A DNA stretch of 64,000 bases from Triglochin maritima (lineage: Eukaryota; Streptophyta; Magnoliopsida; Alismatales; Juncaginaceae): assembly GCA_963682175.1 (NCBI GenBank), contig OY821784.1:29617621-29681620 (forward strand), written 5' to 3'. Under the pieces are notes generated by a model. The model made no database searches, had not been told where the DNA came from, and saw only the letters and a program-made list of their open reading frames with translations. This document shows positions 19,272-56,361 of this stretch, in pieces (the first letter of the stretch is position 1; every line of letters starts with the position of its first letter). The position numbers and the translations under genes are program-made.

Positions 19272-20804
19272 TGTTGGCATTTTGGCCTTAATCTTATGTT
19301 TTGATGATTTAATCAACCGAATCTTAATTAGAGTAGCACACACTATGCATTGCATATATATTGTATTGTGCTAACCTCTACAGGTGATCAAGACTCAAGA
19401 AAGATGGAAATAAAGTCAAGACATGTAATTAAAGCTAAATCGAAGACATGTAATCTTGATTTCTTTTGAGTCTTAGGAACAAAGTGTAATTGAGCATACT
19501 TGAGCTAAAATCAACTTAATCACACACTAGGTTCCTCATAGAAGTCACACACGAAATTTCACTTAATTTGGACTTCAATAGATCACCCAAACCTAGACCG
19601 GAAAACACTAAACTTAACTGTCTGCCCACATTCGGTCGACCGCAACAGGCCGTTCGGTCGACCGGATGATCAAGCTTTCTAATTGTGTTTCCCTGTCTGT
19701 TTCCGGTCGACCAAACCTTTCCAAACGGTCGACCGTTTGAACCTTATTTTCCCGACCGTTATTTTGTCGTATATACCCAACGGTCGTATTCGTATTAAAC
19801 CAAAAATACCCCAAATGTATTTCATGTATCGGTCGACCGAGGACCACGATCGGTCGACCGTTGGTTCATCTCTTGACAAACCCAAAGTGCCTGTCCATAA
19901 TCGGTCGACCGCCAAAACCAGTTTCGGTCGACCGGTTAACCTTGTCAAAATCCCCTGCTATCGGTCAACACAATTTCGGTCGACCGATCCATTTTTCCCT
20001 CTACCGAAATGCTTGTTCGGTCGACCGGTAATCGTGTTTGGTCGACCGTTTTATTAATTGACTTAAGTGTTCAGTCGACCGATTCATATTTCGGTCGACC
20101 GTATCCCTATCGAACCCAAGCGTTCGGTCGACCGTTGCACCTTTTCGATCGACCGTTTCTGGACAGATTTGCTGCCCGATTTTCTGCTTTGTGTTCTTTG
20201 CACAATATCCAACCAAATATTGTCCCAACGGATCTATTCTCTCTAAAGCTTATAAATAGAGTTGTAAAACACATTTTAACACAACTCTCCCACTACAAAC
20301 TTGTCCCAAACTTTAGAGAGAATTCCATACACTCCAAACCTCAAATCTCCACACTTAATCATATTTCCAATCTCATTCAAGTGTGCTCAAAGTTTAGAGA
20401 GTGTGTTCCACTCAAGTTACATTTGCTGTCAAGAAAGTAAAGGCTCCGGTGAAAGCCCGAAGCATCCTTCTCGGATTGTGAGAAGAGGATTCCAAGCTCG
20501 GCGAGAGTTGTTCGCGAGTTTGATGGTTGTAAGGCGTTGTCTCCCGGCCCGGAACGGGGAGGGGATAGTGAAGTCGTAGGCGGAGCTCGGTGATCCGAGC
20601 GGAGCTTGCAAGAGAGGATTAGGACCCGGGTGGGGTGCCGAACCTCTATAAAAATCGACCCGACTTCTTGTGATTTGCATTATTTTCCTTTACTTGCTTG
20701 TTTGTTTTTAATTTCCGCTGCGCATATCCATTGCTTAAACAAGTAGGTAATTAGGTGATTAGATAAAAAGTCATTAGTGGACCCATAACCCACACGATCC
20801 TACA
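19272..20804 (+). repeat. Family C solo LTR inserted in the RT region of element B
   Basis: 1,533 bp from TGTTGGCATTTTGG to GATCCTACA, flanked by the 5-bp target duplication AGTGG (19267-19271 and 20805-20809). The RT reading ISV...DPANVEAV is cut at this point. The start resembles that of the Sirevirus-like H LTR, so C is probably the same lineage. TATA box TATAAATA at 20251-20258. A single LTR with target duplication implies LTR-LTR recombination after insertion. Confidence 0.95.
19634..20154 (+). repeat. CGGTCGACCG dyad array in family C solo LTR
   Basis: Paired 8-mers (GGTCGACC or variants) start at 19634/19656, 19705/19727, 19831/19852, 19903/19926, 20019/20040, 20073/20093 and 20126/20147. 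Spacing within pairs is 20-23 bp. A looser pair is at 19963/19978 and a decayed one at about 19754/19781. The array ends about 97 bp upstream of the TATA box, in the presumed U3 promoter. Confidence 0.9.
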
Positions 20805-22971
20805 AGTGGATCCAGCGAATGTGGAGGCAGTGACTCAATGGAGAGTCCCGACGAGTGTGACAGAGATTAGGAGCTTTGTTGGACTGATGGGTTATTATCT
20901 TCGATTCATCAAGAACTACTCGAGGCTTGCTTCACCTCTGACGGCACTGACGCAGAATGGAGTGAAGTTTGTTTGGTCCCAGAAGTGCGAGGATAGTTTC
21001 TAGGAACTGAAGAGTCGGTTGACGACTGCTCAAGTTCTGACTCTTCCCAGTGGCAGTGGAGGTTTTGTGATTTATAGTGACGCTTCTGAAGTGGGTTTGG
21101 GTTGTGTACTGATGCAGCACGGTCAGGTGGTTGCATATACTTTGAGGTAGTTGAAGGTGCACGAGAGGAACTACCTCACTCATGATTTAGAGTTGGCAGC
21201 AGTGGTTCATGCAATGAAGACCTGGCGTCATTATCTGTATGGTGAGATGTTCGAGGTTTTTACAGATCCCCAGAGTCTGAAGTACCTGTTTTCGTAGAAA
21301 GAGCTGAATATGAGGCAACGCAGGTGGCTTGAGCTGATCAAGGATTATGATTGCACCATCTCTTACCATCCGGGGAAGGTGAATACAGTTGTAGATGGCT
21401 TGAGTATGAAGATGGAAATTTCAGCTGCCAGTTTTTGTATTCAGGAGTGGAGGCTACTTGAGACCTTGTCAGAGTGGAAGTCATTCACAGAGGACTCTGA
21501 GAGCGCGGCTGGATTGAGAGTAGAGCCTCCTATGGTCACAAGTATTGTCCAGGCTTAGAAGTTTGATGAGGAGTTAGCTGAGTTGTTGCAGTTGGCTACC
21601 AGAGATGGATCAGATTTTAGTGTAGGAGTTGATGAAGGTCTAAGATTCAGAGGTCGTGTCTGGGTACCGAAGGGGGGAGATCTGAAGAAGGAAATCTTGG
21701 AGGAGGCAAACAGATTCAGTTATTCTATTCACCAGGGCAGAACGAAGATGTATAAGGATCTTCAAAGGAATTTCTGGTGGAAGAAAATGAAGATGGAGAT
21801 AGCAGAGTTTGTTGACAGATGTCTGGTTTATCAGTAGATGAAAATTGAGAACTAGAGACCCATGGGACCGATGCAGGGGATCGAGCTTCCAGAGTGGAAG
21901 TGGGAGCATGTGACTATGGACTTTGTCACCGGGTTGCCGAGGACAAGAGGATTTCATGACGCGATTTGGGTTATAGTCGATCGACTGACCAAGTCAGCGC
22001 ACTTCTTAGCTATTCGGACCCCTTTACCTCTGGAGGGTCTAGCTAAGTTGTACATTGAGGAGATAGTCAGACTTCATGGTGTGCCAGTAAGTATTATTTC
22101 TGATCGACACGTCAGGTTTACTTCCAAATTTTGGGGGAGTTTGCAGCAGGCTCTGCGAACTCGGCTGAAGTTCAGTACACCATTCCACCCACAGACATAT
22201 GGTCAGTCTGAGAGGACGATCCAGACTCTAGATGATATATTGAGAGCTTGTGCTCTGGATTGGGCAGGACACTGGGATGAGCATTTACCGTTGATAGAGT
22301 TCACCTACAACAACAGCTACCATTCGAGTATTGGAATGATGTGGGCGGTAGACCTTGCAGATCACCAGTGTGCTGGAGTGATGTAGGCGAGAGACAGCTG
22401 GTTGGTCTGAGATTGTGCAGATGTATGCTGAAAAAGTCGATGTGATCAGGCAGAGATTAGCGACAGCTCAGAGGAGTCAGAAGAGCTACGCGGATAGGCA
22501 TAGGTGTGGGCTAATGTTTGAGGTAGGTGATCACGTTTTCCTGAAGATTTCACCATCTCGAGGAGTGATAAGATTCGGGAAGAAGGGGAAGCTCAGTCCG
22601 ATGTATGTCGAGCCGTCTGGGATTCTCGATCGTATCAGAGAGGTTGTATACAGGATTGCGCTGCCGACGTAATTTTCTGGTCTTCACAACGTCTTCCACG
22701 TTTCTATGCTGAGGAAGTACGTAGCAGATCGTTCACACGTGATTCAGTTATAGGTTCCGGAGATCCAGCAGGATTTGTCTCCCGAGGAGAGACCGGTGGA
22801 GATCGTGGATCGGATGGAACACCGACCCAGGAGGAGGACCATTCCGATGGTGAAGGTCAGGTGGCAGGACCATAGTGAGCGAGAGGTCACTTGGGAGATC
22901 GATGAAGAGGTCCGGAAGAAGTTCCCGGAACTGTTTGGTGAGTTTCGGTTGTAATTTCGGGGACAAAATTC

Positions 22972-22988
22972 TTTTAAGGATGGTGGAT
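22972..22988 (+). other. Polypurine tract of element B
   Basis: Purine-rich TTTTAAGGATGGTGGAT directly before the 3' LTR start at 22989. Element E has the corresponding tract. Confidence 0.7.
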
Positions 22989-24761
22989 TGTAATATCTTA
23001 AAACCTTATTTTTTGGGTTAATTGGTTTTTATGGGGCTAATTGGAGGATTTGGTTGGATGGTTGGGATGAGTTGGTGGAGATGAGGTGGATGGTGGAGAT
23101 CGAGAAGAGAAGAGTATAAGGTTGGTGGTTTCCATCTCTCTCTCTATCGTTTTTCTCTTTCCCGCTCAAATTCTCTCTCTCTACTTTGATCCTCGGCAAT
23201 CAGAAGCTCCGGAGAGGGTGGATTTGGTGAGGTGAGGTGAAGCTCAGGCGTTCTCCGGAGTTGAGTAGATCGTGGCTCGGTTGGATTGTCACCGGAGATT
23301 GGTTTCTTGAGGGAAAAAACTCGTTGTTGGATCTTCAAAGGCTTCTTTAACCCTTCAAGGTATGTCAAACTTTACTTTGATACTCACTTATGCTTTCGTG
23401 AGTGTTGGAGTGGCCGACGGTAGGCCGGATGGCTCGTCGAACCTCAGTTCAGTAGTTTTCTGCTGTGTTCGGTCAACCGAATGGTGGATCGGTCGACCGT
23501 TGTTCGTGTGATTTTGGGGAGTCTGCCTTGCACTGGTCGAACGATGCTTCGTGCGGTCGACCGGTCAAGCATGTTTGGAAAGCTCTGGGTATATTCGGTC
23601 GAACGGGTCCCATTTGTCGTTCGACCGAAGCACTGTTTTAAGTCGGTTGGGGGTGTAGACCACAAAACGGTCGACCGCCCTGAGATCTCGTTCGACCGAT
23701 AACTTAAGTTAACTTAAAGTTCGTTCGACCTTTTCGTTGTTTCGGTCGACCGGTGTAATTTGCTATAAATCAGATTTTACTGCCTTTTTCGGTCGACCAT
23801 CGATCTTTTATTGTTCGCCCGTTTGTGCTTCTTGTGCGACAAGGGGTTTTTACTGGTGGTTTTCGGTCGAACGGGTCCGCTTTTCCATTCGACCGGTTGG
23901 CGGGTTTTTCGGTTGGGTCAGTCCTCTGGATGGGGATTCTGACGACCGGTATGGTGTTTTGTTCGACCGTTTTGGTGCAATTTGGTGTTGTTTTGGTGTT
24001 GTGGAACCAGTTTGGGGACAACAGATCCCCAGCCCTTTTGGGGCAAAGGTACAGACATTGCCGGCCTGAGAGTGGTTCGTTGGTGTTGTGGTGTGATGGA
24101 ACCAGCTTGAAGGCAACGGGTCCCTGACCTTGGAGGGCAACGGTACAGACATTGCCGACCTGAGAGTGGTTCGTCGGATCAGCTTTGAGGGCAACGGGTC
24201 CCCGACCTTGGAGGGCAACAGTACGAACATTGATGGCCAGATATTGATCCAGAGTTGTGTTGTATCCGAGGATGTTTCTGGTTGTAGTGTCTGGGGCACG
24301 TGTGAGGGTTGGGCTAGAGGACCTACGAGAGTCGTTGTTGTTTTGTGTCTACTGTGGAAGGGAGAGAGTTCCCTGAGGCTCAGTGAGACGTTTGTCTACT
24401 CTATTTCATATCATACATGCTTATAGATGTCTAGTTCATTTGTTGTTATAGGAGTTTAACATACGGGATTTTCTTGTGGGAAACTTAGACATAGTCATGT
24501 TTTATTTCAGGCCGTGAGCGGCGCTAGGAGGTGGTGACCGAGGAGGAGCGTGTCCGGAGCTAGATCCTGTTTTTCCTGTTTTTGAGGTCTTAGTGATTGC
24601 ATGTATATTTCCCTTTATCTTTTGTTGTAATCACACTCTTGAACTCTCAAATATATATTGTATGTATGTTGGTGCACCAGTTGCCCGGTTCTTCCGTGAT
24701 ATCTTCATGTTTGTGTTTATGTTAAAAAATTTAAATTTCTTCCGCTGTTGAGGATGTTACA
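22989..24761 (+). repeat. 3' LTR of element B
   Basis: 1,773 bp, TGTAATATC...GATGTTACA. It ends 58 bp from the stop codon of the convergently arranged C2-domain gene, so that gene's 3' processing signals must lie in the short gap or in LTR sequence read antisense. Confidence 0.92.
23471..23968 (+). repeat. CGGTCGACCG dyad array in element B 3' LTR
   Basis: Pairs start at 23471/23491, 23535/23555, 23597/23619, 23669/23690, 23723/23744, 23791/23813, 23865/23887 and about 23939/23961. Spacing within pairs is 20-22 bp. Several pairs are a split inverted repeat, CGGTCGAAC...GTTCGACCG, rather than two full palindromes. Confidence 0.9.
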
Positions 24762-24819
24762 CGAAAGACATATAACCTAAACATGTAACCATTATTCGAA
24801 CATTAATTATCTAACATAA

Positions 24820-27056: not shown

Positions 27057-29008
27057 TGTAACGTACCCGAAAACAGCGGAAAATTTAAACAATAATAAAG
27101 ACCGTTAACGGTCCACACTGGGCACGTCACGGGAAACAAACCAACATATATAATATAAATATGATCCACGTGGAAGTCAAATATACAAACTGACTGTGAT
27201 TACGACAAAAGCTATACAATATGTAATCACCTCAAAAGAAAGAGACTGATAACTACAGGATCTGATCTCGGGGGCACCGTCCTCGGTCACCACCTCAAAC
27301 TCTAACCCTGCTCGCTACCTGAAATGCAAACAACAAACATGCCTGAGTTCCCTGTAGGAACCCCGTATACCAAACCTCCTAAAAATATAAAAAGGAATTA
27401 AAGAGAATGCAATGCTATGCACATGATCATCCGCCTCGGGCCCACAATAATGCCCTCACCGCCTCCGCGGCACTGAACCACTCCTGCCACTAGGGTCAAG
27501 TCAGTCCATCGCTGCCTCACAAGGGTCAGTCGACACCACTGCTCCCCAAAAAGTGCAGGAAGGAACCCCCGGTACACGCCGCACCCATGGAGCGAGTCAG
27601 CCCGCCGAATACACAACTCGGGTCAGACGACAGTCACTGCTCCCCCAAGAGTCGCCTAACGCGCACCCTGCCGGAACATCCTCGGCCTACCGCTAAACCC
27701 TCGCAAACTGCCCAAGGTTTACGGTACACATCCCTCACACCCCGCTCGGTAAGAGAGGAAAAATGGTAGTACAATAATACGCCTTCGTCGAAGGTGAAAT
27801 CCGTAGCTCTCAAAGCCGGTAATCAACCGTCGCCTCGGAGCCGGTAGTCGACCTGACATCGACGGATCGCGTGTGGATAAATCCACCAACCTCCGGCAGA
27901 TCGGTCGACCACTACAAGCACACCGGTCGACCGGTCCCCCACACAGTACACAGTACTGTACAAACAAATCTACCGGTCGAACCACGCCAACCGAATTACC
28001 GACCAATCGGTCGAACAAAAGTCATCTAGCGGTCGACCGTTTGGAAGGTCTACGCTATACAATTTTATATAATATATATATCCGACCGGTCGAACCAAGG
28101 GGCCGTTCGACCGATAACAGGACTTTCAATATTTTGCCCAAGTCTCGTTCGGTCGACCGGAACTGAAATACAGTTCGACCGAAACAACACAAGCACTCTA
28201 CCGCTTAATTAAATGCTCAGTCGGTCGACCGAAAGTTAAAGAGCGGTCGACCATTTTGATGGTCAAAGCTCCCAACCGACTTAGCATCGAATGGATCGGT
28301 CGAACAAGGTAAAGGACGTTCGACCGTTTAATAAGTCAAAATCCCCAACCGACCCATTCTCATCGTTATTCGGTCGACCGGCTGAGTGGTCCCGTTCGAC
28401 CGATAACAACATAACCCCTTTTTCCCGCACAAATCTGGCATAACGGTCGACCGTCCTAAGACATCGTTCGACCGTTTGCGGGTAAACATCAATATAATAA
28501 TAGGATCGGTCGACTGCCCACAGGCACCGGTCGACCGATCGTCGTCTTCAACCTCTGAATTGGTTGAAATCCGACGGGGAATTCGACACCAACGTCGATC
28601 CCCAACACTCACAAGTCTTATGTGAGTTATAATGAAGATTTGGCATACCTTTTTCGATGGTTGAAGAAGCCTCCCGAGCTCCCTTCAACACCCCTTCTCT
28701 TCTTCTTCCCTTCTTCTTCTTCTTCTTCCTCTTCTTTACTTCTTCTTTTGCTCCGAAAGTCTCTCTCTCTCACTCTCTGTTAGATGCAAATGATGAAGAA
28801 ATGTTTTAACAAAATCCTATCTTAACTATATATATACATTCATCACCTCCATCTCCTCCAATCACCATTCACCTAAAACCCTTCCAATCACAACCAACCA
28901 ACTCTCTCTCTCTCTCCTTCCAACACCTCCTGCTCTTCATGCAAGATTAATTAGAGTTAATTAAGTTTAGGTTTAGTTAATTAAGATGTTTTAGATTAGG
29001 TTATTACA
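27057..29008 (-). repeat. 3' LTR of element E
   Basis: 1,952 bp, plus-strand ends TGTAACGTACC and GGTTATTACA. A TATATATATA stretch at about 28828-28836 lies some 175 bp from the LTR start and may be the TATA box. The palindrome array would then lie downstream of it, in transcribed R/U5. Confidence 0.95.
27903..28536 (-). repeat. CGGTCGACCG dyad array in element E 3' LTR
   Basis: Pairs start at 27903/27925, 28009/28031, 28088/28105, 28151/28173, 28223/28245, 28298/28318, 28372/28394, 28445/28466 and 28508/28529. Spacing within pairs is mostly 20-22 bp (one is 17). Pair-to-pair steps from the fourth pair on are 72, 75, 74, 73 and 63 bp. The filler between sites is mostly non-repetitive. The same array lies at 34470-35103 in the 5' LTR. 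Confidence 0.93.
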
Positions 29009-29023
29009 ATCTACCCTCCTTAA
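29009..29023 (-). other. Polypurine tract of element E
   Basis: On the minus strand AAGGAGGGTAGAT immediately precedes the 3' LTR start TGTAATAACC. Confidence 0.8.
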
Positions 29024-29057
29024 AAGAATTTCGTCCGCGAAATTCAAAACAACAGAC

Positions 29058-32000
29058 TTACCGAAACAACTCTGGATACTGCTTCCTAACATCCTCCTCA
29101 ATCTCCCAGGTAGCCTCTCTGACAGTGTGATGTTGCCACCTGACCTTCACCATAGGAATCGCTCTCCTCCTGAGCTGATGTACCATCTGATCCACAATCT
29201 CAACTGGTCTCTCATCTAATGACAAATCCTGCTGGATCTCCGGTACTGATATCTCTATCACATGAGCTGGATCGGCCACGTACTTCCTCAACATAGAAAC
29301 ATGGAAGACGTTGTGAAGTCCTGCAAACTGTGGTGGTAGTGCAATCCTATATGCCACCTCACCGACCCGATCCAATATCTCAAAAGGTCCAACATATCTC
29401 GGACTCAGCTTCCCCTTCTTCCCGAATCTCATCACACCTCTGGAAGGTGAGATCTTCAGGAAGACATGATCTCCTACATCAAAAGTCAGCTCACGCCTCC
29501 GCGTATCAGCATAACTCTTCTGCCTGCTCTGCGCCGTAGCTAGTCGTTTCCGAATCACGTCGACCTTCTCTGAATACACCTGGATAATGTCAGGTCCAAC
29601 TAGCTGTCTCTCGCCCACATCACTCCAGCATACCGGCGATCTACACGGTCTCCCGTATAATGCCTCATAGGGTGCCATCCCAATACTCGAATGGTAGCTG
29701 TTGTTGTAGGCGAACTCTATCAACGGCAAGTGCTCATCCCAATGCCCGGCCCAGTCCAATGTACACGCTCTCAGCATGTCCTCCAATGTCTGTATCGTCC
29801 GCTCTGACTGGCCATCAGTCTGTGGGTGGAAAGCTGTGCTAAACTTCAGACGTGTCCCCAGTGCTCTGTGTAGACTCTCCCAAAATCTCGAAGTGAATCT
29901 GGGATCTCTGTCTGAAATGATACTGACTGGTACGCCATGAAGTCTGACAATCTCCTCAATATATAACTTAGCTAGACCCTCCAGAGCAAGAGTGGTCTTA
30001 ATAGCTAAGAAATGCGCCGACTTGGTCAGTCGATCGACTATAACCCAAATCGCATCGTGGAATCTCCGTGTCTTCGGTAGCCCCGTAACAAAATCCATCG
30101 TCACGTGCTCCCACTTCCACTCGGGCAACTCAATCCTCTGCATCTGCCCTGCTGGTCTCTGATGTTCGATCTTCACCTGCTGACAGACCAAACACCTCGA
30201 CACAAAGTCTGCAACGTCCTTCTTCATACCTCGCCACCAGAAGTTCCGCTGCAGGTCTTTGTACATCTTGGTGCTCCCTGGATGAATGGAATATCTCGAT
30301 CTGTGTGCCTCCTCCATGATGTCATGTCTCAGGTCCTCTGTCTTCGGCACCCAGATACGGTCTCTGAATCTCAGACCTCCATCCACTCCAACTCTGAAGT
30401 CTGACCCATCTCTGGCAGCTAACTGTAACAAACTGCTCAACTCCTCATCTGTAGTCTGAGCATGAATCACTGCTGATACTGTCTGAGGCTCTACTCTCAA
30501 TCCGGCAATCACTGCGCCCTCAGAGCTATCAGCAAATGGCCTCCACTCTGCCAAGGACTCTAGCAGTCTCCACTCCTGAATGCATAGGCCTGCTACTGAT
30601 ACCTCCACCTTCCGGCTCAAAGCATCTGCAACTGTGTTCGCCTTCCCCGGATGGTAAGAGATAGTGAAGTCATAGTCCTTAATGAACTCAAGCCATCTGC
30701 GCTGCCTCATGTTCAGCTCCTTCTGCGAAAATAGGTACTTCAGACTCTGATGATCTGTAAACACCTCGAACGGCTCGCCATAAAGATAGTGTCTCCAGGT
30801 CTTCAGTGCGTGAACCACTGCTGCTAACTCCAAATCATGTGTCGGGTAATTCCTCTCATGGACCTTCAGCTGTCTGGATGCGTACGCGATCACCCTCCCG
30901 TGCTGCATAAGTACACATCCTAAGCCAACACCTGAAGCGTCGCTATAAATCACGAATCCACCCGTGCCACTCGGCAATGATAAAACTGGTGCTGTGGTCA
31001 ACAGTCTCTCCAGCTCCTGAAAGCTGTCCTCGCACTTCTGCGACCAAACAAAAGTGACTCCCTTCTGCGTCAGAGCCGTCAGTGGTGCTGCCAATCTCGA
31101 GAAGTCTTTGATGAAGCGACGGTAATAACCCGCCAGTCCAACAAAGCTCCTAATCTCCGTCACGCTCGTAGGGGTCCTCCACTGTGTCACTGCCTCCACC
31201 TTCGCCGGATCCACTGATATCCCCTCTGCCGATACAATGTGTCCGAGGAATGCCACTCTGTCCAACCAAAACTCGCACTTTGAGAACTTAGCATATAACT
31301 GCTGAGCCCTCAAGATGCTGAGTACAATCCTCAGATGCTCTCTGTGCTGCTCCACATCTGGTGAATAGATCAAAATGTCATCCACGAAGACAATCACAAA
31401 TATATCAATATACTGCCTGAATGTCCGGTGCATCAGATCCATGAATGCTGCCGGAGCATTCGTCAATCCAAATGGCATCACCAAGAACTCATAGTGTCCA
31501 TATCTCGTCCTGAAGGCTGTCTTCTGGATGTCCTCATCTCGAATCCTCAACTGGTGATATCCTGAACGCAGGTCAATCTTCGAGAAAACCTTCGCTGACT
31601 GCAGCTGGTCAAAGAGGTCCTCGATCCTAGGTAAGGGATACCTATTCTTTACTGTCACCTGGTTCAGCATCCTGTAGTCTATGCACATCCTCAAGGATCC
31701 GTCCTTCTTCTTCACAAACAAAACTGGTGCACCCCAAGGCGAGACACTCGGTCTGATAAATCCAGAGTCCATCAACTCCTGCAACTGCTTCTTCAACTCT
31801 GTCAACTCAGCAGGTGCCATCCGGTATGGAGCCTTCGACTGTGGTGTAGTGCCAGCTACCAACTCAATGCCGAACTCCAACTCCCGGTGTGGTGGTAAAC
31901 CTGGAATCTCCGCTGGAAAAACATCCGCGAACTCCTGCACCACCTCAATGTCCTCTAGCCTCTGAGACTCTGCCTCCGCAACCACAAGTGTCGCCAGAAA

Positions 32001-33620: not shown

Positions 33621-33623
33621 AAT

Positions 33624-44480: not shown

Positions 44481-44588
44481 ACACTCGTGCTCACAAACAC
44501 ACTTGTCGGAAGAACATCGACACCCCAACTCACCCCACGCGGACGACCACAACAACTGCACCTCCAACGTGCAAAACTAGACACAAAC

Positions 44589-45265: not shown

Positions 45266-45342
45266 GATCAGGCAGTAAAATTTGCTACATGTTTACTTGC
45301 GACGAGCCAGAAGGCCTACCGTCGACTTCCAAATACTCACAC

Positions 45343-47124
45343 TGTAGGATCTACTAGCCCCTAAACTTAGTCTAAAGGGGGGGTGAATAGACTAATTACG
45401 GTATTAGTGATAACTATGCCAAATTCAAAATATGAGACAATAAAGAAGAAGAGATGAACAAACAAACCACTACTCCGGATGTATAGAGGTTCGGATCCAA
45501 CCACCGGATCCTAGTCCTCTCTTACGAATTGCTCTTACTCGAGCAACTTCGCGTTCTCCACTAATCCGATCTCCGTTGCGGGCCGAGATCACGCCTTTAC
45601 ACCACAAGCTTTGCGAACACCCTCGCCTAGCTTGGACCACCTTCTCACAACCCGAGAAGAGCTTCACTCCGGAAGCTTGTACAACTCTTGAAGAATAAAA
45701 CTTCAGCAACTAATCTTGGCACTTGAAAATGATGATGCAATCTAATGAGGATGGTTTCAAGTGAGAAGATTTGTGAGCACAAGGGTTTTTAGCACTTAGG
45801 AAGTAGTAATGAGATTTTGAGCTTAGAGAAAGATTGGGAGTCTTGAATGAGTGTTCTAAGCTCTATTTATATGCTCCAATCAAGTTCTAGCCGTTGGGGA
45901 TTAAGTGATGGAGAGTTGTGTAAGAAAACACAAATCAAAAAAGATAGCACAGGTTTCTGGCGACTAACGGTCGATCGGATCGAGTTACACGGTCGACCTA
46001 TTCAAGGCAGTGCTTCATTCGGTCGACCAAAAATGATAACGGTCGATCCAACTAGGCTGGAACTTAAGTGATCGGTCGAACGGTTTCGAATACCAGTTCG
46101 ACCGAAAAGAGACAGTAGCTCTGGGTCTGGAAAAGACTTAAGGTTCGGTCAACCGTTCAAAGAGTTCCGGTCGACCGGTAGACATGTTTGCTTTGAGACC
46201 CGATAATAACACATGTAATCGGTCGAACAAGGTAAGTGCAACGTTCGACCGAATCTGCCCAGTAGCAAAGAGACGGAGAAGAAACATGATTCGGTCGACC
46301 GTATAGGGAGGTCCGGTCGACCGGAATACTAAATCCAAACTTAGGTTAGTTAGAAAAATGTGTATACGACCGTTGGAGTATACGACAAGTATAACGGTCA
46401 TAATAAATACAAATACGGAAATCAATCGGTCGAACAGAGATGAACTATCGGTCGACCGAAAGTCCTACGCAGAGGACACGTGTCGAAATGAGATAGGCTG
46501 AAGGATTTGTATTTGGTAAAATAATTTCTCACTCGACAAGGTCAAACGGTCGAACCGAACATATATTTCGGTCAACCGAAATATAACAGTAAAACAGGAT
46601 ATGAAGAAACGGTCGAACGGATGAAGGAATTTTGTCGACCGATTTCTGACAGGCAAAATTTATAGGCGGAACGGTCGACCGGAAGAAGTAATTGGGTCGA
46701 CCGTTTTGAGACAAATTTTGTTGACTGGGAAGGTCTGGTGAAAAACGGTCGAACCAAATGGTTCTACCGGTCGACCGTTTTAGTTCAGTTTTTCTGTTTT
46801 TTGGTTCTAATGAGTTTGGTTGAGTTCTAATGAAGTCTAGGATATATGGAAGATAATGTGAGACTTCTATAAGTATCCTAAGTGATGTGTAATGCAATGA
46901 ATCATGAGTTTCAAGTGCCAAGTTACATTTAGGACCTAAATACATGGAATTGAAACTTAGCTACTCTTCGATCTTCATCTTTAGTTTAACTCAAACTTGA
47001 ATCCTGAAATGTTAGATGACACATATATATATGCAAGTAATAATATTTCAATTGATACATGTTTTTATTGAGAAGTTGATTAATCATCAAAACGGATTAA
47101 CGATTATTAGCCAAAAAGCCAACA
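45343..47124 (-). repeat. 3' LTR of element H
   Basis: 1,782 bp, plus-strand ends TGTAGGATCTACT and AAAGCCAACA. Minus-strand TATAAATA at 45864-45871. Dyad array at about 45969-46776 (for example 45969/45991 and 46747/46769, both 22 bp). Compared with the 5' LTR, several differences are CG-to-TG/CA changes inside palindromes. Confidence 0.95.
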
Positions 47125-47138
47125 ATCTCCCCCTTTTT
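47125..47138 (-). other. Polypurine tract of element H
   Basis: Minus-strand AAAAAGGGGGAGATT immediately precedes the 3' LTR start TGTTGGC. Confidence 0.88.
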
Positions 47139-47552
47139 GATGATGACAACTTATCAACCTAAATACATGTTTAGATTTGATTTTTATCATACACAATCAA
47201 TGACTAAAGCTCCCCCTATTTTATAGCTCCCCCTATCTATAAGCATGTATTTATTTCTCCCCCTTTGGCATAAGCAAAAAGACCCATAAGATAATGTGAT
47301 AAGCGTTTTAAGCAAATAAGATATGGTACCGGAAGCGAGATTATTTAGCCAAGCCAAAACATAGAAGAGACAACAATAAACCATGCAATTAACTTAGAAT
47401 TCATAACAAACATCAATAACAACGTCGAAAGCAAATACTACAAAGAGTTTCAAAACAGAATACATCAATAAACCAAAGTTTGAACCAACAACATCATAAA
47501 CCAAAATACAACGACAAAACGACACACACGCTCCACAAAACACAACATCAAA

Positions 47553-48827
47553 TCACCCAAGCCTCTGATCACGCAGCAGCGATGAAAGGGAGTCAAGAGA
47601 GGCTTCAATTCGGCCAAGCTGAGAGGATGTGGATGCCTCAAACGCATCGAAGCGAGCAGAAGTGGACGCCTCAAGTGCATCGAAGCGAGCAGAAGTGGAG
47701 GCCTTGAAGGAATGAACTTGATCCGAAAGTTGTTGAAAACGATACTGATCAATGGAAGATGAAGAGGACCACTGCCCTTGAGCCCAAGCAGCAGAGTCTC
47801 CCTCACCCCACCAGGAGCTGGAGTCGCGAGGGACGGAACGAGGCATCCACCTCGGATCTTCAGATACTTCTTCTGCCTCTTCTCCTTCTTCTTCGGAATT
47901 TTGAGCTGAGTCCTCAGAAGATGAATGAGGTGGCGAAGGAAGAGGAATGGATTTCATTTTGAAAAGGGTGGTCTTACAGAAAGGAAATTTGTAGACCACA
48001 GAGGGAAAAGAAGTGACATCGATATTCCATGTTTCAAGAAGCACAGTAATCCACATAGGGTAGGGAAGATACGATCCACTACGATGACACATGTGCGAGA
48101 TAATGAAACTAGGCCAATCTACCAACTTTTTCTTATAGATGCAATAGATGCACATAAAAGCCAAATTAGATATCTCGTTTCGGTGACCAAGTTTAGGAAA
48201 GATGTTGTAAGATATGATTTGGGCAAGAATCCGGGGTAGAGGGTGTAAAAGAGATGCATTGTGTTTGAAACGACCGTTTACCCGAGGAGGAGGAATAGCA
48301 TATAACTCATCAACCATTGACTCTAGATTGGTGTCGGGGAGAGCACCTTGAGGAAAGTCACGATAAATGTTTATTCCCCTTGACGAAAAACCTAGAGACT
48401 TAGACAATAATTCGGGTGTGATCCTATATTCAATCCCATTGATTAAGGTAGTCAAGACATGCTTATGAGGGACTTTTCTAAGATTGCAATAGAATTGTTG
48501 CACAAGAAATGGATAATAGGGTTTAGATGCAATAACAGTGTGAGAGTAAGTGAGTTTGTTTGCATCTAAAACGGATTGTAAAGACAAGTTATCAAAGTCG
48601 GCTACCTCAACCTTGCGACATGGTATGAAGTTAGCAACCGAGAAAAAATCATCCCACGACTTTTTAGCATCATCATCAACCGGAATGAACTGAAGCAAAG
48701 GTTGAACCGGAGAAGCCGGAGCACGAGAAGAGGAAGGTTGAGTGTCTTGTTTCTTCTTGGAGCGACTCTCGGAAGCCTTCTCTTGAGAGGGACGTTTCTT
48801 GGAGATGGTGAGCTTTGAGCGACCCAT
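47553..48827 (-). CDS. Third ORF (env-like position) of Sirevirus-like element H
   Basis: Intact 424-codon ORF downstream of pol. N-terminus basic and Ser-rich (SKLTISKKRPSQEKA). The middle domain (LVQQFYCNLR, INGIEYRITPELLSKSLGF) resembles the plant transposon-protein domain found in extra ORFs of plant retroelements. An acidic Ser/Glu stretch follows, then three tandem repeats of the ASTSARFDAL type in a likely coiled-coil tail ending RDQRLG. No signal peptide or clear membrane segment is seen, so the envelope label rests on position only. Function unknown; its survival without stops suggests recent selection or youth. Confidence 0.8.
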   Translation of the reverse strand: MGRSKLTISKKRPSQEKASESRSKKKQDTQPSSSRAPASPVQPLLQFIPVDDDAKKSWDDFFSVANFIPCRKVEVADFDNLSLQSVLDANKLTYSHTVIASKPYYPFLVQQFYCNLRKVPHKHVLTTLINGIEYRITPELLSKSLGFSSRGINIYRDFPQGALPDTNLESMVDELYAIPPPRVNGRFKHNASLLHPLPRILAQIISYNIFPKLGHRNEISNLAFMCIYCIYKKKLVDWPSFIISHMCHRSGSYLPYPMWITVLLETWNIDVTSFPSVVYKFPFCKTTLFKMKSIPLPSPPHSSSEDSAQNSEEEGEEAEEVSEDPRWMPRSVPRDSSSWWGEGDSAAWAQGQWSSSSSIDQYRFQQLSDQVHSFKASTSARFDALEASTSARFDAFEASTSSQLGRIEASLDSLSSLLRDQRLG

Positions 48828-49724
48828 TTTGGAAGAAAATGGTGGAGAAGGTGGAAAGTGGTTGAAGGGAGTCGAAAAAATGGAAGAACGAGTGGAGGAG
48901 GACGGCTGGAGAGGGTGGCGGTCGACCGGAATGGGAGGGGCGGCACTTAGGGTTTGAGGAGTGGAAATGGGTGAAATGAGGGAAATCCTCGCAGAAGCCC
49001 TAAATGTACAGAAAATAACACGAACGGTTGACCGCTCTCATTACTCGGTCGACCGGTGCGTTAATTTTTTTTTTGAAAACCTACGACAACACAGCTACTG
49101 GTCACAATCGGTTGGACGAGTATTACGCAATGGTCGACCGCTAGCAAAAAATTTAAAACCAGGGAAGCTACTGAAGATTTTTGGTCGGACGGAATGAGAA
49201 TGTCGGTCGACCGAAACACGAATATTCAAAGAAGGTGGAAACACTGACGAATTTCGGTCGGACGGAAGGAGAATGCCGGTCGACCGAATGATGCGTGAAA
49301 GTTGCTAGGTGATTTTCGGTTGGACAAAAAAACACACATACGGTCGAACGCAAAACTTATACGGTCGACTGCAAATCAACAAAGGTTCGACCGAAACTTA
49401 AGTTAACTTAAGTCAGGTCGACCAAGTGAGAAACGATCGAACTAAGTGGAATACGTGGTCGACCGAAACACACCAGGAGATCTCAAAAACGATACAGCAT
49501 TGGGACCGGTCGACCGAACAAACTACACCGGTCGACCGAAATCGAGAAAATTTGAGAAACTGCTAGATTAAAACAGTAATCCGGTCGAACGACACTTGCT
49601 TTCAGTTCGGCAGAAACACGTCTGAAAAGCCCAAATTTGATAAACACCCAATAAACCCGCAAGCAATTTGAAAGAAATCACAACCAAGAATGAAACTACG
49701 ACAGAGTCACATGAAATGTTCAAG
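48828..49724 (-). promoter_or_regulatory. Palindrome-rich spacer between pol and the third ORF of H
   Basis: About 900 bp without a coding domain. Sites at 48918, 49026/49047 (21 bp), 49110/49132 (22 bp) and onward to about 49600 are the same CGGTCGACCG and GGTCGAAC forms as in the LTRs. Their place directly upstream of the third ORF makes an internal promoter or processing region conceivable. This is inference from position only. Confidence 0.55.
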
Positions 49725-52700
49725 TTATACGTCATTTAAGTTGCACATGCCTAGATTTAGCCTTATATGAATGAATTGATCAACGTTTAAAGGTTTTGTG
49801 AAGATATCCGCAAGTTGATCATTAGTGGGAACAAATATAAGCTCAATGTCTTCCTTTGTTGCATGATCTCTTAGAAAATGATGTCTAACCTCAATGTGTT
49901 TAGTTCTAGAATGCAATATGGGATTTTTCGAAAGATTTATTGCACTAGTATTATCACATAAAATAGGAGTAGTTTGAAACTCAAGTTTCAAGTCTTTGAG
50001 GGTTTGTCTAATCCACAAGACTTGTGCACATGCACAACCGGCAGCAATGTATTCGGCCTCGGTTGTCGACAATGCAACACTATTTTGTTTCTTACTAAAC
50101 CAAGAGACAAGCGATTTTCCCAAGAAATGACAAGTGCCACTAGTACTTTTACGATCTAAAATGCAACTGGCATAGTCGGCGTCACTATAGGCAAGAAGAT
50201 CAAAAGCCCTAGTTTTGGGGTAAAACAAACCAAATTCTTGAGATCCTTTGAGATAGCGGAAAATACGTTTTAAAGCATTGAAATGAGATTCTTTAGGACA
50301 AGCTTGAAAACGTGCACACAAACACACGGAAAACATAATATCCGGACGACTAGCGGTAAGATAAAGCAAGGATCCGATCATACCTCGATATTTCTTGATA
50401 TCCACCTCCTTGCCATTTTCATCTTTGTCTAGCTTAGTGCTAGTGCTCATCGTAGTGTTATGTGGTTTGCTATCTTCAAGACCAAAGCGTTTTAAAAGCT
50501 CTCTTGTGTACTTAGCTTGGTGTATGAAGTTCCCATCTTTAGTTTGCTTAATTTGAAGTCCGAGGAAAAAGTTTAGTTCACCAATTAAGCTCATCTCGAA
50601 CTCCCCCTGCATAGACTTGGAAAATTCTTTGCAAAGACGCGGGTTACTTGCACCAAAAATTATATCATCAACATAGATTTGTACCACTAGTAAATCATGA
50701 TCATATGTTTTAACAAAAAGAGTGGTATCCACTTTACCCACACAAAAACCTTTGTCGATTAGGAAGTTCTTTAATCGCTCATACCAAGCTCTAGGAGCTT
50801 GTTTGAGGCCGTAAAGAGCCTTCTTAAGTTTAAACACATGGTTTGGGTAAGTTTCATTTACAAATCCTGGGGGTTGTGCCACAAAAACTTCTTCATTTAT
50901 AAAGCCATTTAGGAAAGAACTTTTGACATCCATTTGAAATAATTTTATGTCCATGTAAGATGCATAAGCTAATAACATGCGAATGGCTTCCATTCGAGCG
51001 ACGGGAGCATAAGTTTCATCAAAGTCTATACCCTCCTCTTGGCGATAGCCTTGAGCGACGAGTCTAGCTTTGTTTCTTATTACATTCCCATCTTCGTCAA
51101 GTTTATTTCGAAATATCCATTTAGTTCCAATAACCGATTGGTTAGAAGGTTTTTCAACAAGTTCCCAAACATTATTTCGAACAAATTGATTTAGCTCTTC
51201 ATGCATAGCCATTAGCCAAAATTCGTCATTACATGCTTCATCAACTTTCTTAGGTTCTAATGAAGAGATAAATGCATAAGAATCACAAACCACATGTGCT
51301 TTAGATCGTGTCGTCACACCTTGAGAAACCTCTCCAATCACAAAGTCCTTCGGATGATCCTTTCTATAGGTCCAATCCTTAAGAAGATCCTCCACGTCCT
51401 CTTGTGGAAGACTTGGAGACTCTTGATGAGACTCAAGAGGGGCATCTTGTGATGATACATGTCTAATTATATCCATACAATCATCATCAAGAGAGGAGTT
51501 ATCCACACAAGCTAACTCGTCAAAGTTAACGTGTAGAGATTCCTCAACACAACTTGTTCGTTTATTATAGATTCTATATGCTTTACTCCTATCGGAATAC
51601 CCTAAAAAGATAGCCTCATCAGATTTTGCATCAAATTTATCCAAGTTGTCTTTAGTATTGAGGACAAAACATTTTGAACCAAAAGCTTTAAAATATGAAA
51701 TTTTAGGAGTCCGGTCATGCCAAAGTTCAAACGGAGTTTTCTTCAAAATAGGTCTAATGAGAACACGATTCAACACATAGCAAGAAGTATTAACGGCTTC
51801 GCACCAAAAATATTTTGGAAGTCATTTTTCCACAAGCATTGTTCTTGCCATTTCTTGAAGAGTTCTATTTTTCCACTCAACTACCCCATTTTGTTGAGGA
51901 GTGCGAGGAAACGAAAAATTGTGCTCAATTCCATACTTTTCACAAAACTTTTGAAATGATTCGTTTTCAAATTCTCCTCCATGATCACTACGAATAGTGA
52001 TTATGTTAGAATCTTTTTCTCTTTGAACACGCTTGCAAAAACTTTTAAATTTTTCAAAAGCGTCATACTTGTTAGCTAAAAATAAAACCCAAGTGAATCT
52101 CGAAAAGTCATCAACAATTACAAATGCATATCTTTTCCCTCCTAGACTTACGGTCCTTGAGGGTCCAAAAAGATCTAAGTGTAAAAGCTCGAGAGGTTTT
52201 GAAGTTGACACCACATTTAGAGATTTAAAAGAAGATTTAAATTGTTTTCCAAATTGGCATGCATCACAAAGTTTGTCCTTTTTGAAATCAATTTTTGGTA
52301 GTCCTCTAACCAATTCAAGTTTGGATAATTTGTGCAATTGTGACATACTAATATGTCCCAAGCGGTTGTGCCATAACCAAGCTTCGTCATGTGAGGCAAC
52401 TAAACAAGTTTCAACACCTAGGTTTCTAAGATTATCAACATGAACAATGTAGATGTTATTTGATCTATATCCATTAAAGACAATTTTCATGTCATTTTTA
52501 GAGATGATATGGCAAGTGTGTTTGTCAAATACAACTAGAAAATTCTTATCGGTCAATTGACTAACACTAAGTAAGCTATGTTTTAACCCATCTACTAATA
52601 AAACTTTTTCAATGTTAGGAGTATTAGAATTACCAACATTGCCGATGCCGACAATGTGTCCTTTAGCATTATCTCCAAATGTGACGGTTCCTCCCTTCTT

Positions 52701-52781
52701 AGGCTTTAAGTTGGATAGAACATGGGAGTCTCCCGTCATATGCCTCGAGCACCCGCTATCGAGAATCCACTTCCCCTTTCT
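49725..52781 (-). pseudogene. Copia Pol of element H, one stop codon
   Basis: Protease WILDSGCSRHMTG near 52769; integrase with LWHNRLGHIS and the D-D-E core (LHLDLFGP, IRSDHGGEF, NGVVEWKNRT, where the usual Arg after Glu is Trp); RT from about 51120 (YVDDIIFGAS near 50670); RNase H (YSDADYASC near 50175) to the stop at 49725. The only break is TGA at 51824-51822, within integrase. Pol lies in the +1 frame relative to gag and overlaps its end by some 25 bp, so a frameshift would be needed to join them. Confidence 0.92.
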
Positions 52782-54525
52782 CCTTGCTTTTATCTACAAT
52801 CAAAGAAACAAGTGAAGACTTTGGTACCCAAATTTGTTTGGGTCCTTGAGGGTTAGCTTTTGGTACCCAAACTTGAGTAGTCTTAGGTACCCAAACATTT
52901 GAATAATTTGTTTTCCTAATAAAAGAGTTATTCATTTTAACAAAGTAGGAAGTGAGTTTCTTTTGTTTACCTCCCTTATAACCTAGACCATGTTTTGTTA
53001 AAGATTGAGTTTGAGTTCCAAGAAGCATATCAAGCATTTTTCTACCTAAGGTGAATTTCTCTAAGTCTTTCGTGAGTTGCATATTCTTGGCAATGAGATC
53101 TTCATTTAGATGATTATCTTTTGTAGATTTTAGAAATGTGATCTCATCATTTAGAACCTCAATTTCTTTTGTTAGCATATCACATTTCATAGATTGATCT
53201 AGATTAACTTTTCTAGCTAATTTGTTTTTATGACAAATCATTTCATAACGTTCGGCAAGTTCTTGAAAAGCATCTAATAGATCATCATAAGGAGGTGTTT
53301 CGTTTAGGGATACCTCATCGTCGTCGATTTCCACCACGTGAGGTTGATCACTTGTCTTTGGTGATGGAGGAGGACTCGAGTCGGAATCAACATTGGATGC
53401 CATAAAACACATGTGTGCTTCTTCTTCTTGGGAGTATTCGGAGTCGGAGTCCTTTGATGAACTTGAGTCATCCCAAGTGGCTTTGAGAGCCTTTTTCCAA
53501 TCCTTTTCGCGACGATCCCTTCTCTTGTAATCGTCACGTCTTTTAGGCCTCTCTTCCTTTTCCTTTCGGGGTGGCCTTTCATCTCTATCTTTTCTTGGTC
53601 TCTCATCCCTTTCTCTTCTAGGAGGATATCTCCTTTCTTCTCTTCGTTCACGATCCCTTGGCCTAAGCAAAGAGCAATCCTTCTTCATGTGGCCGGTTTT
53701 GTTGCACTCATAGGAAGTGAATGTCCGAGAAGTTTCTCCTCTTCCTTTTGCAAATTTTCTCTTGGAGAGAAACTTCTTGAAGTTGCGGGTTAGGAAAGCA
53801 ACATCTTCATCGGTGTCATCGTCTTCGATTGCGTCTGAATCCGAGGTTGCTTTTAAGGCAATTTGTTTTTCTTTACGCTTATATCCTTCCCGTTCCTTCT
53901 CCTTCTCTCTTCTTTCTTCCATTTGGATCTCATACGCCATGAGGCTTCCAATGAGATCCTCCATCTTCAACTTTGAGAGATCTTTGGCTTCTTCAATAGC
54001 CGTAGTCTTTTTCTCCCAATCCAAAGTCAAAGACCTAAGAAACTTTCGTACCCTATCACTTTCAATCACAACCTTACCAAGGTTCTTCAAAGAGTTAGTA
54101 ATAAGAGTAAAGCGAGTATGCATCTCGCTAATGGATTCATTCGGTTTCATAGCAAACATTTCATATTTTTGCATAAATGAATCTATTCTAGTTTCCTTAA
54201 CGGATGATCGACCTTCAAAGTGACTTTCTAACATATGCCAGGCTTCAAATGCGGAATCACATGCATTAATTCTACTATATTGTTCTTTGGTCAAGCCACA
54301 CATAATTATGTTCATGAGTTTAGCATTCATTTGAATCATGGCTAATTCATCATCATCCATACGTTCTAATGGTTTGTCTTGTTTATAAGGTATTTGGAAG
54401 AACACCCATAATTTAACATCATAAGATTGTATGAATGTGGTCATACGTTTCTTCCAATAGGCATAGTTTGTTCCATCAAACAAAGGAGGTCTTCCGGTGT
54501 GAAATCCCTCTCTTTGTTGGGCCAT
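52756..54525 (-). CDS. Gag of Sirevirus-like element H
   Basis: Open frame of 589 codons from ATG 54525 (MAQQREGFHTGRPPLFDG); an in-frame ATG 30 bp upstream is less likely because the family begins near MAQ. Contains the Copia Gag core (LMNIIMCGLTKEQYSRI, FEGRSSVKETRIDS), a zinc knuckle reading SYECNKTGHMKKDC with the first Cys replaced by Ser, a long Arg/Lys/Glu-rich tract (DERPRKDRDERPP), a coiled-coil-like segment, and WVPK repeats near the end. Gag would form particles and bind the RNA. The altered knuckle may weaken RNA binding. It ends at TAG 52756, overlapping the protease in another frame. Confidence 0.88.
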   Translation of the reverse strand: MAQQREGFHTGRPPLFDGTNYAYWKKRMTTFIQSYDVKLWVFFQIPYKQDKPLERMDDDELAMIQMNAKLMNIIMCGLTKEQYSRINACDSAFEAWHMLESHFEGRSSVKETRIDSFMQKYEMFAMKPNESISEMHTRFTLITNSLKNLGKVVIESDRVRKFLRSLTLDWEKKTTAIEEAKDLSKLKMEDLIGSLMAYEIQMEERREKEKEREGYKRKEKQIALKATSDSDAIEDDDTDEDVAFLTRNFKKFLSKRKFAKGRGETSRTFTSYECNKTGHMKKDCSLLRPRDRERREERRYPPRRERDERPRKDRDERPPRKEKEERPKRRDDYKRRDRREKDWKKALKATWDDSSSSKDSDSEYSQEEEAHMCFMASNVDSDSSPPPSPKTSDQPHVVEIDDDEVSLNETPPYDDLLDAFQELAERYEMICHKNKLARKVNLDQSMKCDMLTKEIEVLNDEITFLKSTKDNHLNEDLIAKNMQLTKDLEKFTLGRKMLDMLLGTQTQSLTKHGLGYKGGKQKKLTSYFVKMNNSFIRKTNYSNVWVPKTTQVWVPKANPQGPKQIWVPKSSLVSLIVDKSKEKGEVDSR

Positions 54526-54563
54526 TGCTACAAACGTGAATTTGTGTAAATGCAATTAACAAG

Positions 54564-54575
54564 GCTCTGATACCA
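54564..54575 (-). other. Primer binding site of element H
   Basis: Minus-strand TGGTATCAGAGC six bases inside the 5' LTR end; tRNA-iMet type. Confidence 0.9.
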
Positions 54576-54581
54576 ACCAAA

Positions 54582-56361
54582 TGTAGGATCTACTAGCCCC
54601 TAAACTTAGTCTAAAGGGGGGGTGAATAGACTAATTACGGTATTAGTGATAACTATGCCAAATTCAAAATATGAGACAATAAAGAAGAAGAGATGAACAA
54701 ACAAACCACTACTCTGGATGTATAGAGGTTTGGATCCAACCACCGGATCCTAGTCCTCTCTTACGAATTGCTCTTACTCGAGCAACTTCGCGTTCTCCAC
54801 TAATCCGATCTCCATTGCGGGCCGAGATCACGCCTTTACACCACAAGCTTTGCGAACACCCTCGCCTAGCTTGGACCACCTTCTCACAACCCGAGAAGAG
54901 CTTCACTCCGGAAGCTTGTACAACTCTTGAAGAATAAAACTTCAGCAACTAATCTTGGCACTTGAAAATGATGATGCAATCTAATGAGGATGGTTTCAAG
55001 TGAGAAGATTTGTGAGCACAAGGGTTTTTAGCACTTTGGAAGTAGTAATGAGATTTTGAGCTTAGAGAAAGATTGGGAGTCTTGAATGAGTGTTCTAAGC
55101 TCTATTTATATGCTCCAATCAAGTTCTAGCCGTTGGGGATTAAGTGATGGAGAGTTGTGTAAGAAAACACAAATCAGAAAAGACAGCACAGGTTTCTGGC
55201 GACTAACGGTCGACCGGATCGAGTTACACGGTCGACCTATTCAAGGCAGTGCTTCATTCGGTCGACCGAAAATGATAACGGTCGATCCAACTGGGCTGGA
55301 ACTTAAGTGATCGGTCGAACGGTTTCGAATACCAGTTCGACCGAAAAGAGACAGTAGCTCTGGGTCTGGAAAAGACTTAAGGTTCGGTCGACCGTTCAAA
55401 GAGTTCCGGTCGACCGGTAGACATGTTTGCTTTGAGACCCGATAATAACACATGTAATCGGTCGAACAAGGTAAGTGCAACGTTCGACCGAATCTGCCCA
55501 GTAGCAAAGAGACGGAGAAGAAACATGATTCGGTCGACCGTACAAGGAGGTCCGGTCGACCGGAATACTAAATCCAAACTTAGGTTAGTTAGAAAAATGT
55601 GTATACGACCGTTGGAGTATACGACAAGTATAACGGTCATAATAAATACAAATACGGAAATCAATCGGTCGAACGGAGATGAACTATCGGTCGACCGAAA
55701 GTCCTACGCAGAGGACACGTGTCGAAATGAGATAGGCTGAAGGATTTGTATTTGGTAAAATAATTTCTCACTCGACAAGGTCAAACGGTCGAACCGAACA
55801 TATATTTTGGTCGACCGAAATATAACAGTAAAACAGGATATGAAGAAACGGTCGAACGGATGAAGGAATTTTGTCGACCGATTTCTGACAGGCAAAATTT
55901 ATAGGCGGAACGGTCGACCGGAAGAAGTAATTGGGTCGACCGTTTTGAGACAAATTTTGTTGACTGGGAAGGTCTGGTGAAAAACGGTCGAACCAAATGG
56001 TTCTACCGGTCGACCGTTTTAGTTCAGTTTTTCTGTTTTTTGGTTCTAATGAGTTTGGTTGAGTTCTAATGAAGTCTAGGATATATGGAAGATAATGTGA
56101 GACTTCTATAAGTATCCTAAGTGATGTGTAATGCAATGAATCATGAGTTTCAAGTGCCAAGTTACATTTAGAGCCTAAATACATGGAATTGAAACTTAGC
56201 TACTCTTCGATCTTCATCTTTAGTTTAACTCAAACTTGAATCCTGAAATGTTAGATGACACATATATATGCAAGTAATAATATTTCAATTGATACATGTT
56301 TTTATTGAGAAGTTGATTAATCATCAAAACGGATTAACGATTATTAGCCAAAAAGCCAACA
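54582..56361 (-). repeat. 5' LTR of element H
   Basis: 1,780 bp, near-identical to 45343-47124. Minus-strand TATAAATA at 55103-55110 lies about 98 bp downstream of the dyad array. Confidence 0.95.
55208..56015 (-). repeat. CGGTCGACCG dyad array in element H 5' LTR
   Basis: Pairs at 55208/55230, 55260/55280, 55313/55335, 55386/55408, 55460/55482, 55532/55554, 55667/55689, 55787/55809, 55850/55872, 55912/55934 and 55986/56008. Ten of eleven are exactly 22 bp apart. Steps include 52, 53, 73, 74, 72, 63, 62 and 74 bp. Full palindromes alternate with CGGTCGAAC...GTTCGACCG pairs. Confidence 0.95.

Follow-up and report, generated by a model that had tools for sequence, protein, structure and literature searches.

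How does one short palindrome come to be arrayed in the long terminal repeats (LTRs) of retrotransposons that belong to different superfamilies? The question is raised by a 64-kb window of Triglochin maritima DNA (assembly GCA_963682175.1, contig OY821784.1, positions 29,617,621 to 29,681,620), a single stretch to which all site and array counts given here refer, and in which both Copia and Ty3/gypsy elements carry clusters of the dyad CGGTCGACCG. The exact dyad occurs 67 times in the window where 0.02 would be expected (100 shuffles, largest count 1), and the half-form CGGTCGAAC occurs 54 times when both strands are counted (mean 0.24 and largest count 2 in shuffles). Base composition was thus ruled out as the source of the arrays, in agreement with the preliminary description of this DNA. 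When up to two mismatches around a TCGA core were allowed, 170 sites were found, 165 of which fall into 13 regions comprising 11 arrays of 8–22 sites each and the two LTRs of a Copia element, A, with two sites each. Within the window the arrays are confined to LTRs and to the linker of one Sirevirus element, H.

Elements were assigned by self-comparison, Pfam, tblastn and junction motifs. On the Copia side, arrays occur in C, a solo Sirevirus-type LTR on the plus strand (19272–20804, or 19267–20809 with its 5-bp target duplication AGTGG; array 19633–20155, 15 sites), and, on the minus strand, in the Sirevirus-type LTR I (~37050–38537; array 37680–38157, eight sites) and in H. The latter has arrays in its 3' LTR (45343–47124; array 45968–46777, 20 sites), in its 5' LTR (54582–56361; array 55207–56016, 22 sites; target duplication CACAC) and, as H_int, between pol and the third open reading frame (ORF3) at 48919–49591 (13 sites). 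On the Ty3/gypsy side, arrays occur in both LTRs of B on the plus strand (5', 15633–16111, 10 sites; 3', 23490–23969, 13 sites) and, on the minus strand, in both LTRs of D (3' LTR 27057–29009, array 27902–28537; 5' LTR 33624–35572, array 34469–35104; 19 sites each; target duplication AGTTC) and in the chromovirus-type LTRs E_L (40471–42010; array 41496–41961, eight sites) and E_R (43531–45342; array 44588–45266, 14 sites), the last of which is cut by the insertion of H. The ten intervals named in the preliminary description each contain an array, with ends within ~21 bp of the outermost sites at up to two mismatches; the list was incomplete, as it missed H_int and a relaxed CGGTNNACCG array in element A. 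Its statement that the Athila-like elements have no array also held, in that the window scan found no site in 9899–14960 or 56362–64000, the presumed places of these elements, whose Athila label is that of the preliminary description only.

The superfamilies share the arrangement of the dyads as well as the dyad itself. The commonest distance between dyad centres is 22 bp (43 occurrences in the 13 regions, both LTRs counted), which is the 14-bp gap between 9-mer half-forms described earlier, and 22-bp pairs are found in both superfamilies; the claim that motif and pair spacing are common to Sirevirus and chromovirus-type LTRs is therefore supported. Among the 90 half-sites of 45 pairs, the outer half-site was the better one 39 times and the inner one nine times, with 42 ties (p = 1.5e-5), and the ratio of better outer to better inner half-sites was 19:4 in gypsy and 20:5 in Copia. 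Inner half-sites typically change from C to A, in gypsy (18 of 40 half-sites) as well as in Copia (12 of 50). The second base outside the pair is A or T at 35 of the 36 gypsy flanks and at all 46 Copia flanks, compared to spacer A/T fractions of 0.56 and 0.62, respectively, and on the inner side of gypsy pairs the same base is A or T in 21 of 36 (outer versus inner, p = 0.0001).

Larger distances follow the helical repeat in many of the arrays. When the 22-bp steps were counted as well, the period that fitted best between 6 and 14 bp was 10.4–10.5 bp in seven of seven arrays (null counts of 2000: B_R 42, D_R 2, E_R 0, C 0, I 22, H_R 0, H_int 0), where seven arrays do not equal seven independent events. 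Gaps of 26–160 bp on their own fit a period of 10.5 bp in gypsy (n = 23, p ~0.004) and in Copia (n = 31, p ~8e-7). A rigid-pair null was also applied, in which pairs were kept fixed and the gaps jittered (2000 nulls). For sites of up to two mismatches the group mean lay above all 2000 nulls in gypsy and in Copia, and the numbers of nulls reaching the score were 0 for E_R, 94 for E_L, 11 for C, 61 for I, 4 for H_R and 3 for H_int; for sites of up to one mismatch they were 731 for B_R, 44 for D_R, 0 for E_R, 162 for E_L, 8 for C, 2 for H_R, 0 for H_int and 0 for Copia as a group. Copia phasing was still significant when E_R and H_int were dropped (22 gaps, p ~1.4e-4).

A second element of this shared arrangement is the box ACTTAAGT, the 8-mer most widely common to both groups, which was found in the gypsy elements B and E as well as the Copia elements C, I and H. 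It occurs ten times in the window, compared to 1.2 expected (largest count 5 in 200 simulations), and nine of the ten copies lie inside arrays, among them the box at 23702 in the 3' LTR of B, the box at 41919 in E_L, two boxes in I and a double box at 49396–49406 in H_int. Considering one LTR per element plus E_L, five of eight boxes are placed 10–12 bp from one dyad and 20–22 bp from the other, which would happen by chance at 1.3% of positions. The H_int double box accounts for two of these five.

We put the probability at roughly 0.55 that the arrays serve as cis-regulatory platforms on which a single dimeric protein binds in pairs, and which several retrotransposon lineages have kept or acquired. 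The palindromes, the relaxed inner half-sites, the outer flank preference and the phasing, where it holds, argue for cooperative pairs of dimers on one face of the DNA. Each dyad would be bound by a dimeric, sequence-specific protein, with two dimers 22 bp, or about two helical turns, apart; it would be strict about the outer half-sites (A/T A/T CGGTCGA) and tolerant of change in the inner ones (C/A C). Additional pairs at distances close to whole turns of the helix would bring all of the bound protein onto the same face, and a second factor could sit at the ACTTAAGT box, with one turn between it and the dyad on one side and two turns to the dyad on the other. Platforms of this kind would lie in the upstream half of the LTR, with another before ORF3 of H, and the bound array would drive or de-silence the LTR promoter and, in H, possibly ORF3 as well. 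The presence of one site in two superfamilies and, in relaxed form, in a third lineage, whether kept or acquired, would be explained by the use of the same protein in the same host. A bacterial promoter scan of the H LTR was uninformative for a plant and was set aside.

A number of observations weigh against this reading. The binding protein, its cooperative binding and the promoter effect are proposed at candidate level only, from the observed sites, their arrangement, their sharing and the absence of extended spacer homology. In Copia the inner flank is also A/T-rich (41 of 46), so that outer and inner flanks differ at p 0.056. Under the rigid-pair null with up to two mismatches, B_R (578 of 2000) and B_L (877) are not above the null and D_R (74) only just, while with up to one mismatch the gypsy group score was reached by two nulls and neither I (293 of 2000) nor B_L (1763 of 2000) stands out. 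Without E_R and H_int the gypsy gaps are unphased (16 gaps, p ~0.19, best period 8.0), and the five remaining arrays pooled give p ~4e-4 at 10.5 bp with a best period of 7.9. Because of the rigid-pair results and the loss of the gypsy signal without E_R, helical phasing is firm for Copia and E, and weak or absent for B and D. Further, E and H_int contain local 72–73 bp duplications, and H_R and H_int belong to one element. As for the box, ACTTAAGT was chosen after the data were seen, D is without it, and across the window the CTTAAG at its core shows no enrichment (17 versus 16.3). B and D have TATA-like matches within the array itself, whereas those of C, I and H follow it at ~100 bp, with single matches elsewhere too; given these differing positions, promoter layout may differ between elements. 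Lastly, the relaxed array of element A has varied centres and weak phasing, and it is placed at 0.52–0.70 of the LTR.

That relaxed array was found in both LTRs of A on the plus strand, at 1054–1421 in the 5' LTR (~1–2041; 12 sites at up to one mismatch) and at 8897–9246 in the 3' LTR (~7847–9898; 10 sites). In the 5' LTR, CGGTNNACCG occurs seven times exactly, compared to 0.004 expected, and 12 near matches compare to 0.24. Gaps within the array are 18–19, 24, 34, 45, 64 and 74 bp. The CGGT and ACCG arms are kept and the central dinucleotide is variable, as if the outer arms alone were read.

The argument depends on the assignment of the elements to two superfamilies, which was made at different depths. 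By its coding domains and most of its junction motifs, H is a Copia element of the Sirevirus type. Its gag and pol (49725–54555, minus strand; three ORFs with copia-type gag, integrase and RVT_2) have the Copia domain order, the place of the Sirevirus env-like gene after pol is taken by ORF3 (47553–48827, minus strand; 424 amino acids from the first ATG; PF20167), and dyad boxes occur in the LTR and upstream of ORF3. The Sirevirus polypurine tract (PPT) AGGGGGAG is present at 47127 with AT/TG at the 3' LTR (match 47123); extra copies are located in the linker at 47210, 47227 and 47257, and one in pol at 50601. The ninemer of the primer binding site (PBS), TATCAGAGC, lies at 54564 beside the LTR, with TTTGGTTGG as the intervening bases, unlike the ATTGG of the published CA-ATTGG leader. 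C and I, in which no coding domain was found, appear to be Sirevirus-type from the similarity of their LTRs (C aligns with H3 at 62–64% in stretches of 377 and 496 columns, and I with H3 at 64% in one of 562). Element A has the Sirevirus PBS ninemer at 2050 and pol pieces 28–34% identical to those of H; the plus-strand octamer AGGGGGAG, which occurs only once, at 17464, is absent near 7846, so that A lacks the Sirevirus PPT.

For the Ty3/gypsy side, D has gag and pol in one ORF (29058–33209, minus strand; 1382 amino acids), which encodes gag, protease (PR), reverse transcriptase (RT), RNase H (RH), integrase (INT) and an SH3 domain in the Ty3/gypsy order PR-RT-RH-INT. A C-terminal chromodomain match at residues 1345–1380 scored 16.2 bits (E 0.01), below the cut-off of 25.1; PF00385 is present in P0006, a relative with 66% identity over 83%. 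Among the matches listed (best 120 of 3234), the nearest relative is the JGI protein P0001 (83%), and the named relatives are 50–67% identical, some over one third of the length only. D may be a Tekay element. By protein similarity (four of six gag-pol pieces at 75–78% to D, the other two at 51% and 60%) B follows D; its reading frames are broken. No coding match was found in E by Pfam or tblastn across 40471–45342; the similarity of E_R to the LTRs of B (E 4e-41) and D (E 2e-16), with an end that aligns with both, points to a chromovirus-type element, and the type of E_L is taken from the homologous E_R. IMG/VR gave no relative when scanned with the RT ORF of H or the gag-pol ORF of D, and a DNA pattern scan of the same database found three loci (53–68% GC) with two, three and three dyads and no array. 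Neither a tRNA nor an Rfam family was found in the window.

If the grammar is common to the superfamilies, it may have been exchanged between them or have arisen in each. The preliminary description had offered recent LTR exchange as one explanation, and this was rejected: in dyad-masked sequence, extended alignments between LTRs are restricted to members of one superfamily and lie for the most part beside the array (34 bp within it are common to H3 and I, E 1.8e-4). The best match across superfamilies joins B and H_int over 41 bp (E 5.8e-5) and is essentially the double ACTTAAGT box; next come the reverse of that match (E 0.008) and weak matches of 26–32 bp (E 0.06–0.6), among them those of A to B, E and D (E 0.2–0.6). 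Between superfamilies, spacers within 22-bp pairs resemble each other no more than shuffled ones do (0.536 versus 0.541, p 0.62; n = 16 in gypsy and 21 in Copia). It follows that the sites are kept while the sequence between them turns over.

An older exchange is a possible, on balance unlikely, origin. In that scenario the seed of an array would have moved between a Sirevirus and a chromovirus LTR by template switching or nested recombination, after which the sites were kept and the spacers diverged by point change and by local unit duplication. The occurrence of ACTTAAGT at the same offsets of 10–12 and 20–22 bp in C, the H LTR, H_int and B is in its favor, as are the match between B and H_int and the nesting of elements in one another (C inside the pol region of B, H inside E). 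That match is, however, mostly the box itself, the pair spacers of the two superfamilies have no similarity in excess of shuffled ones, and matches across superfamilies measure 26–41 bp. Capture of one DNA-binding protein, another of the explanations first offered, remains the best fit; the protein may be encoded by the host or by an element, and the arrays may have arisen by convergence rather than from a seed supplied by an ancient exchange.

Local growth of the arrays bears on a further explanation from the same source, that the array is a small mobile or tandem repeat in its own right that entered the LTRs. Units of 72–73 bp that contain dyads are duplicated locally in E and H_int (41735–41868, 44828–44966 and 49132–49288), and duplication of such units is a likely route of array growth. 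This is what a self-contained repeat could produce, yet the confinement of the arrays to LTRs and the H linker and the lack of excess similarity between the pair spacers of the two superfamilies make its independent spread extremely unlikely.

The LTRs also carry a signature of base change. Between the 5' and 3' LTRs of H, 8 of 17 differences are CpG transitions, where CpG makes up 190 of 1780 positions; for D the two figures are 5 of 13 and 260 of 1950, for B 31 of 139 and 182 of 1428, and for A 16 of 102 and 141 of 2023. This share looks like the decay of methylated CpG, from which it would follow that a motif with three CpGs has been renewed or selected in active copies. D (27057–35572) and H (45343–56361) are young, probably methylated insertions.

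The palindrome has a known precedent. Bousios 2010 (PMC2829016) described repeated motif (RM) boxes in Sirevirus LTRs and upstream of ENV, and the available passages of that paper give the Vitis Sirevirus RM as exactly CGGTCGACCG, with 10 copies in the 3' LTR and two in the linker, and state that RM boxes are absent from other ('classic') Ty1/copia elements. The same features recur here, namely a palindrome with a CGG-CCG core, in CpG-rich clusters of many copies in the LTR and before an env-like gene. Such palindromes, repeated in at least eight copies and clustered in the LTR, were found in H, C, I, B, D and E (8–22 sites per LTR array, scored at up to two mismatches) and in relaxed form only in A. 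The published boxes begin 200–400 bp into the LTR and span 300–500 bp (PMC2829016), a layout broadly matched by the position of the arrays at 0.17–0.65 of the LTR in B3, C, D3, H3 and I (LTR bounds as used here); in the truncated E_R they lie at 0.04–0.43. What differs is that the array extends here to the LTRs of Ty3/gypsy elements and, in relaxed form, to another Copia element, and that it has a pair, phasing, half-site and ACTTAAGT grammar, which is not found in the available passages of that account. For the Sirevirus half, the palindrome was thus in print before in this exact sequence. In openly licensed literature, judged mostly by title and the start of the abstract, no report of arrays of this kind in gypsy LTRs was found, and PMC2829016 is, by title, the only plant-retrotransposon paper among the matches listed for the motif there. 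We regard three findings as new: the array in Ty3/gypsy (chromovirus-type) LTRs, its relaxed CGGTNNACCG form in the Copia element A, and the grammar shared between superfamilies. The maize Sirevirus palindrome CACCGGACNNNGTCCGGTG, reported also in Helitrons in the available part of PMC10760457, is a precedent for a Sirevirus palindrome in another superfamily of transposable elements (TEs), albeit with another motif and in a DNA transposon.

Two placements of insertions were seen beside the arrays. The insertion of H at 45343 is 76 bp from the last E_R dyad, and an A-type fragment adjoins E_L at 42010, ~50 bp from the last E_L dyad. Insertion near arrays is possible on these two cases only; the accessible text of PMC6911290 reports only a slight insertion preference for palindromes.

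The position of H_int, 92–764 bp upstream of the first ATG of ORF3, raises the prospect that the reader of the dyads is encoded by a retrotransposon. ORF3 of H would then be a nuclear DNA-binding activator or a VANC-like anti-silencer that recognizes the arrays of its own LTR and promoter, and that the chromoviruses and A, as carriers of the sites, use in trans. The position matches the published link between ENV and the linker copies (PMC2829016). ORF3 (ORF 47553–49034) has no membrane-like segment (highest 19-residue hydropathy 1.22), a bipartite basic stretch lies at residues 79–95, shortly behind the first Met (residue 70), and the C-terminal part is a coiled coil with short repeats (block pLDDT 75–86 in a single-sequence model), features unlike those of a classical envelope protein. 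A precedent is offered by VANC6, which, in the passages available, acts on AT9TSD1, an element unrelated to VANDAL that bears the motif (PMC5735166). Conversely, published Sireviruses without ENV still have LTR arrays (PMC2829016), protein searches found no homologue of ORF3 and no PDB relative, and the model, with a mean pLDDT of 42.7, is poor outside the coiled coil, too poor for a DNA-binding fold to be read. We consider an element-encoded factor distinctly unlikely; no more probable is a regulatory commons in which the Sirevirus ORF3 product reads the paired, phased dyads and unrelated gypsy and Copia elements evolved its targets. The VANC target arrays of VANDAL elements (Hosaka 2017, PMC5735166) offer a functional analogue (see also the meeting report PMC12859917). 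As far as the available text of these sources goes, a short non-coding motif is repeated there too and varies between related TEs, and one unrelated TE has the motif and responds to the factor; the motifs (YAGTATTAY, AGTTGTMC) are not such palindromes, the factor is known and TE-encoded, and the elements are DNA transposons.

The palindromes could also act without a DNA-binding protein, as single-strand hairpins in RNA or in DNA that serve as a source of small RNAs or influence reverse transcription. The paired dyads are complementary, and maize Sirevirus palindromes are described as small-RNA hotspots in the available parts of PMC5311732 and PMC10760457. The arms, however, do not covary (mean 8.867 of 10 pairs versus 8.860 when randomly re-paired, fraction reaching the observed mean 0.52), changes in the left and right inner half-sites are independent (Fisher p 0.34), and neither phasing nor a flank preference is expected of a hairpin. 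Hairpins were rejected as the main cause for lack of covariation, and we hold this explanation to be very unlikely; small RNAs may be a by-product of the arrays.

The Sirevirus boxes were described in 2010 without a named binding protein (PMC2829016), and none is named in the available passages of the later literature. The presence of the same code, with rules for pairing and spacing, in unrelated elements provides a paired site of ~38 bp that can be used as a probe for the factor. The sharing also makes it testable whether a common activator or anti-silencing protein is what different retrotransposon superfamilies converge on or parasitise, and it suggests that unrelated families of retrotransposons are switched by one shared DNA-binding protein.

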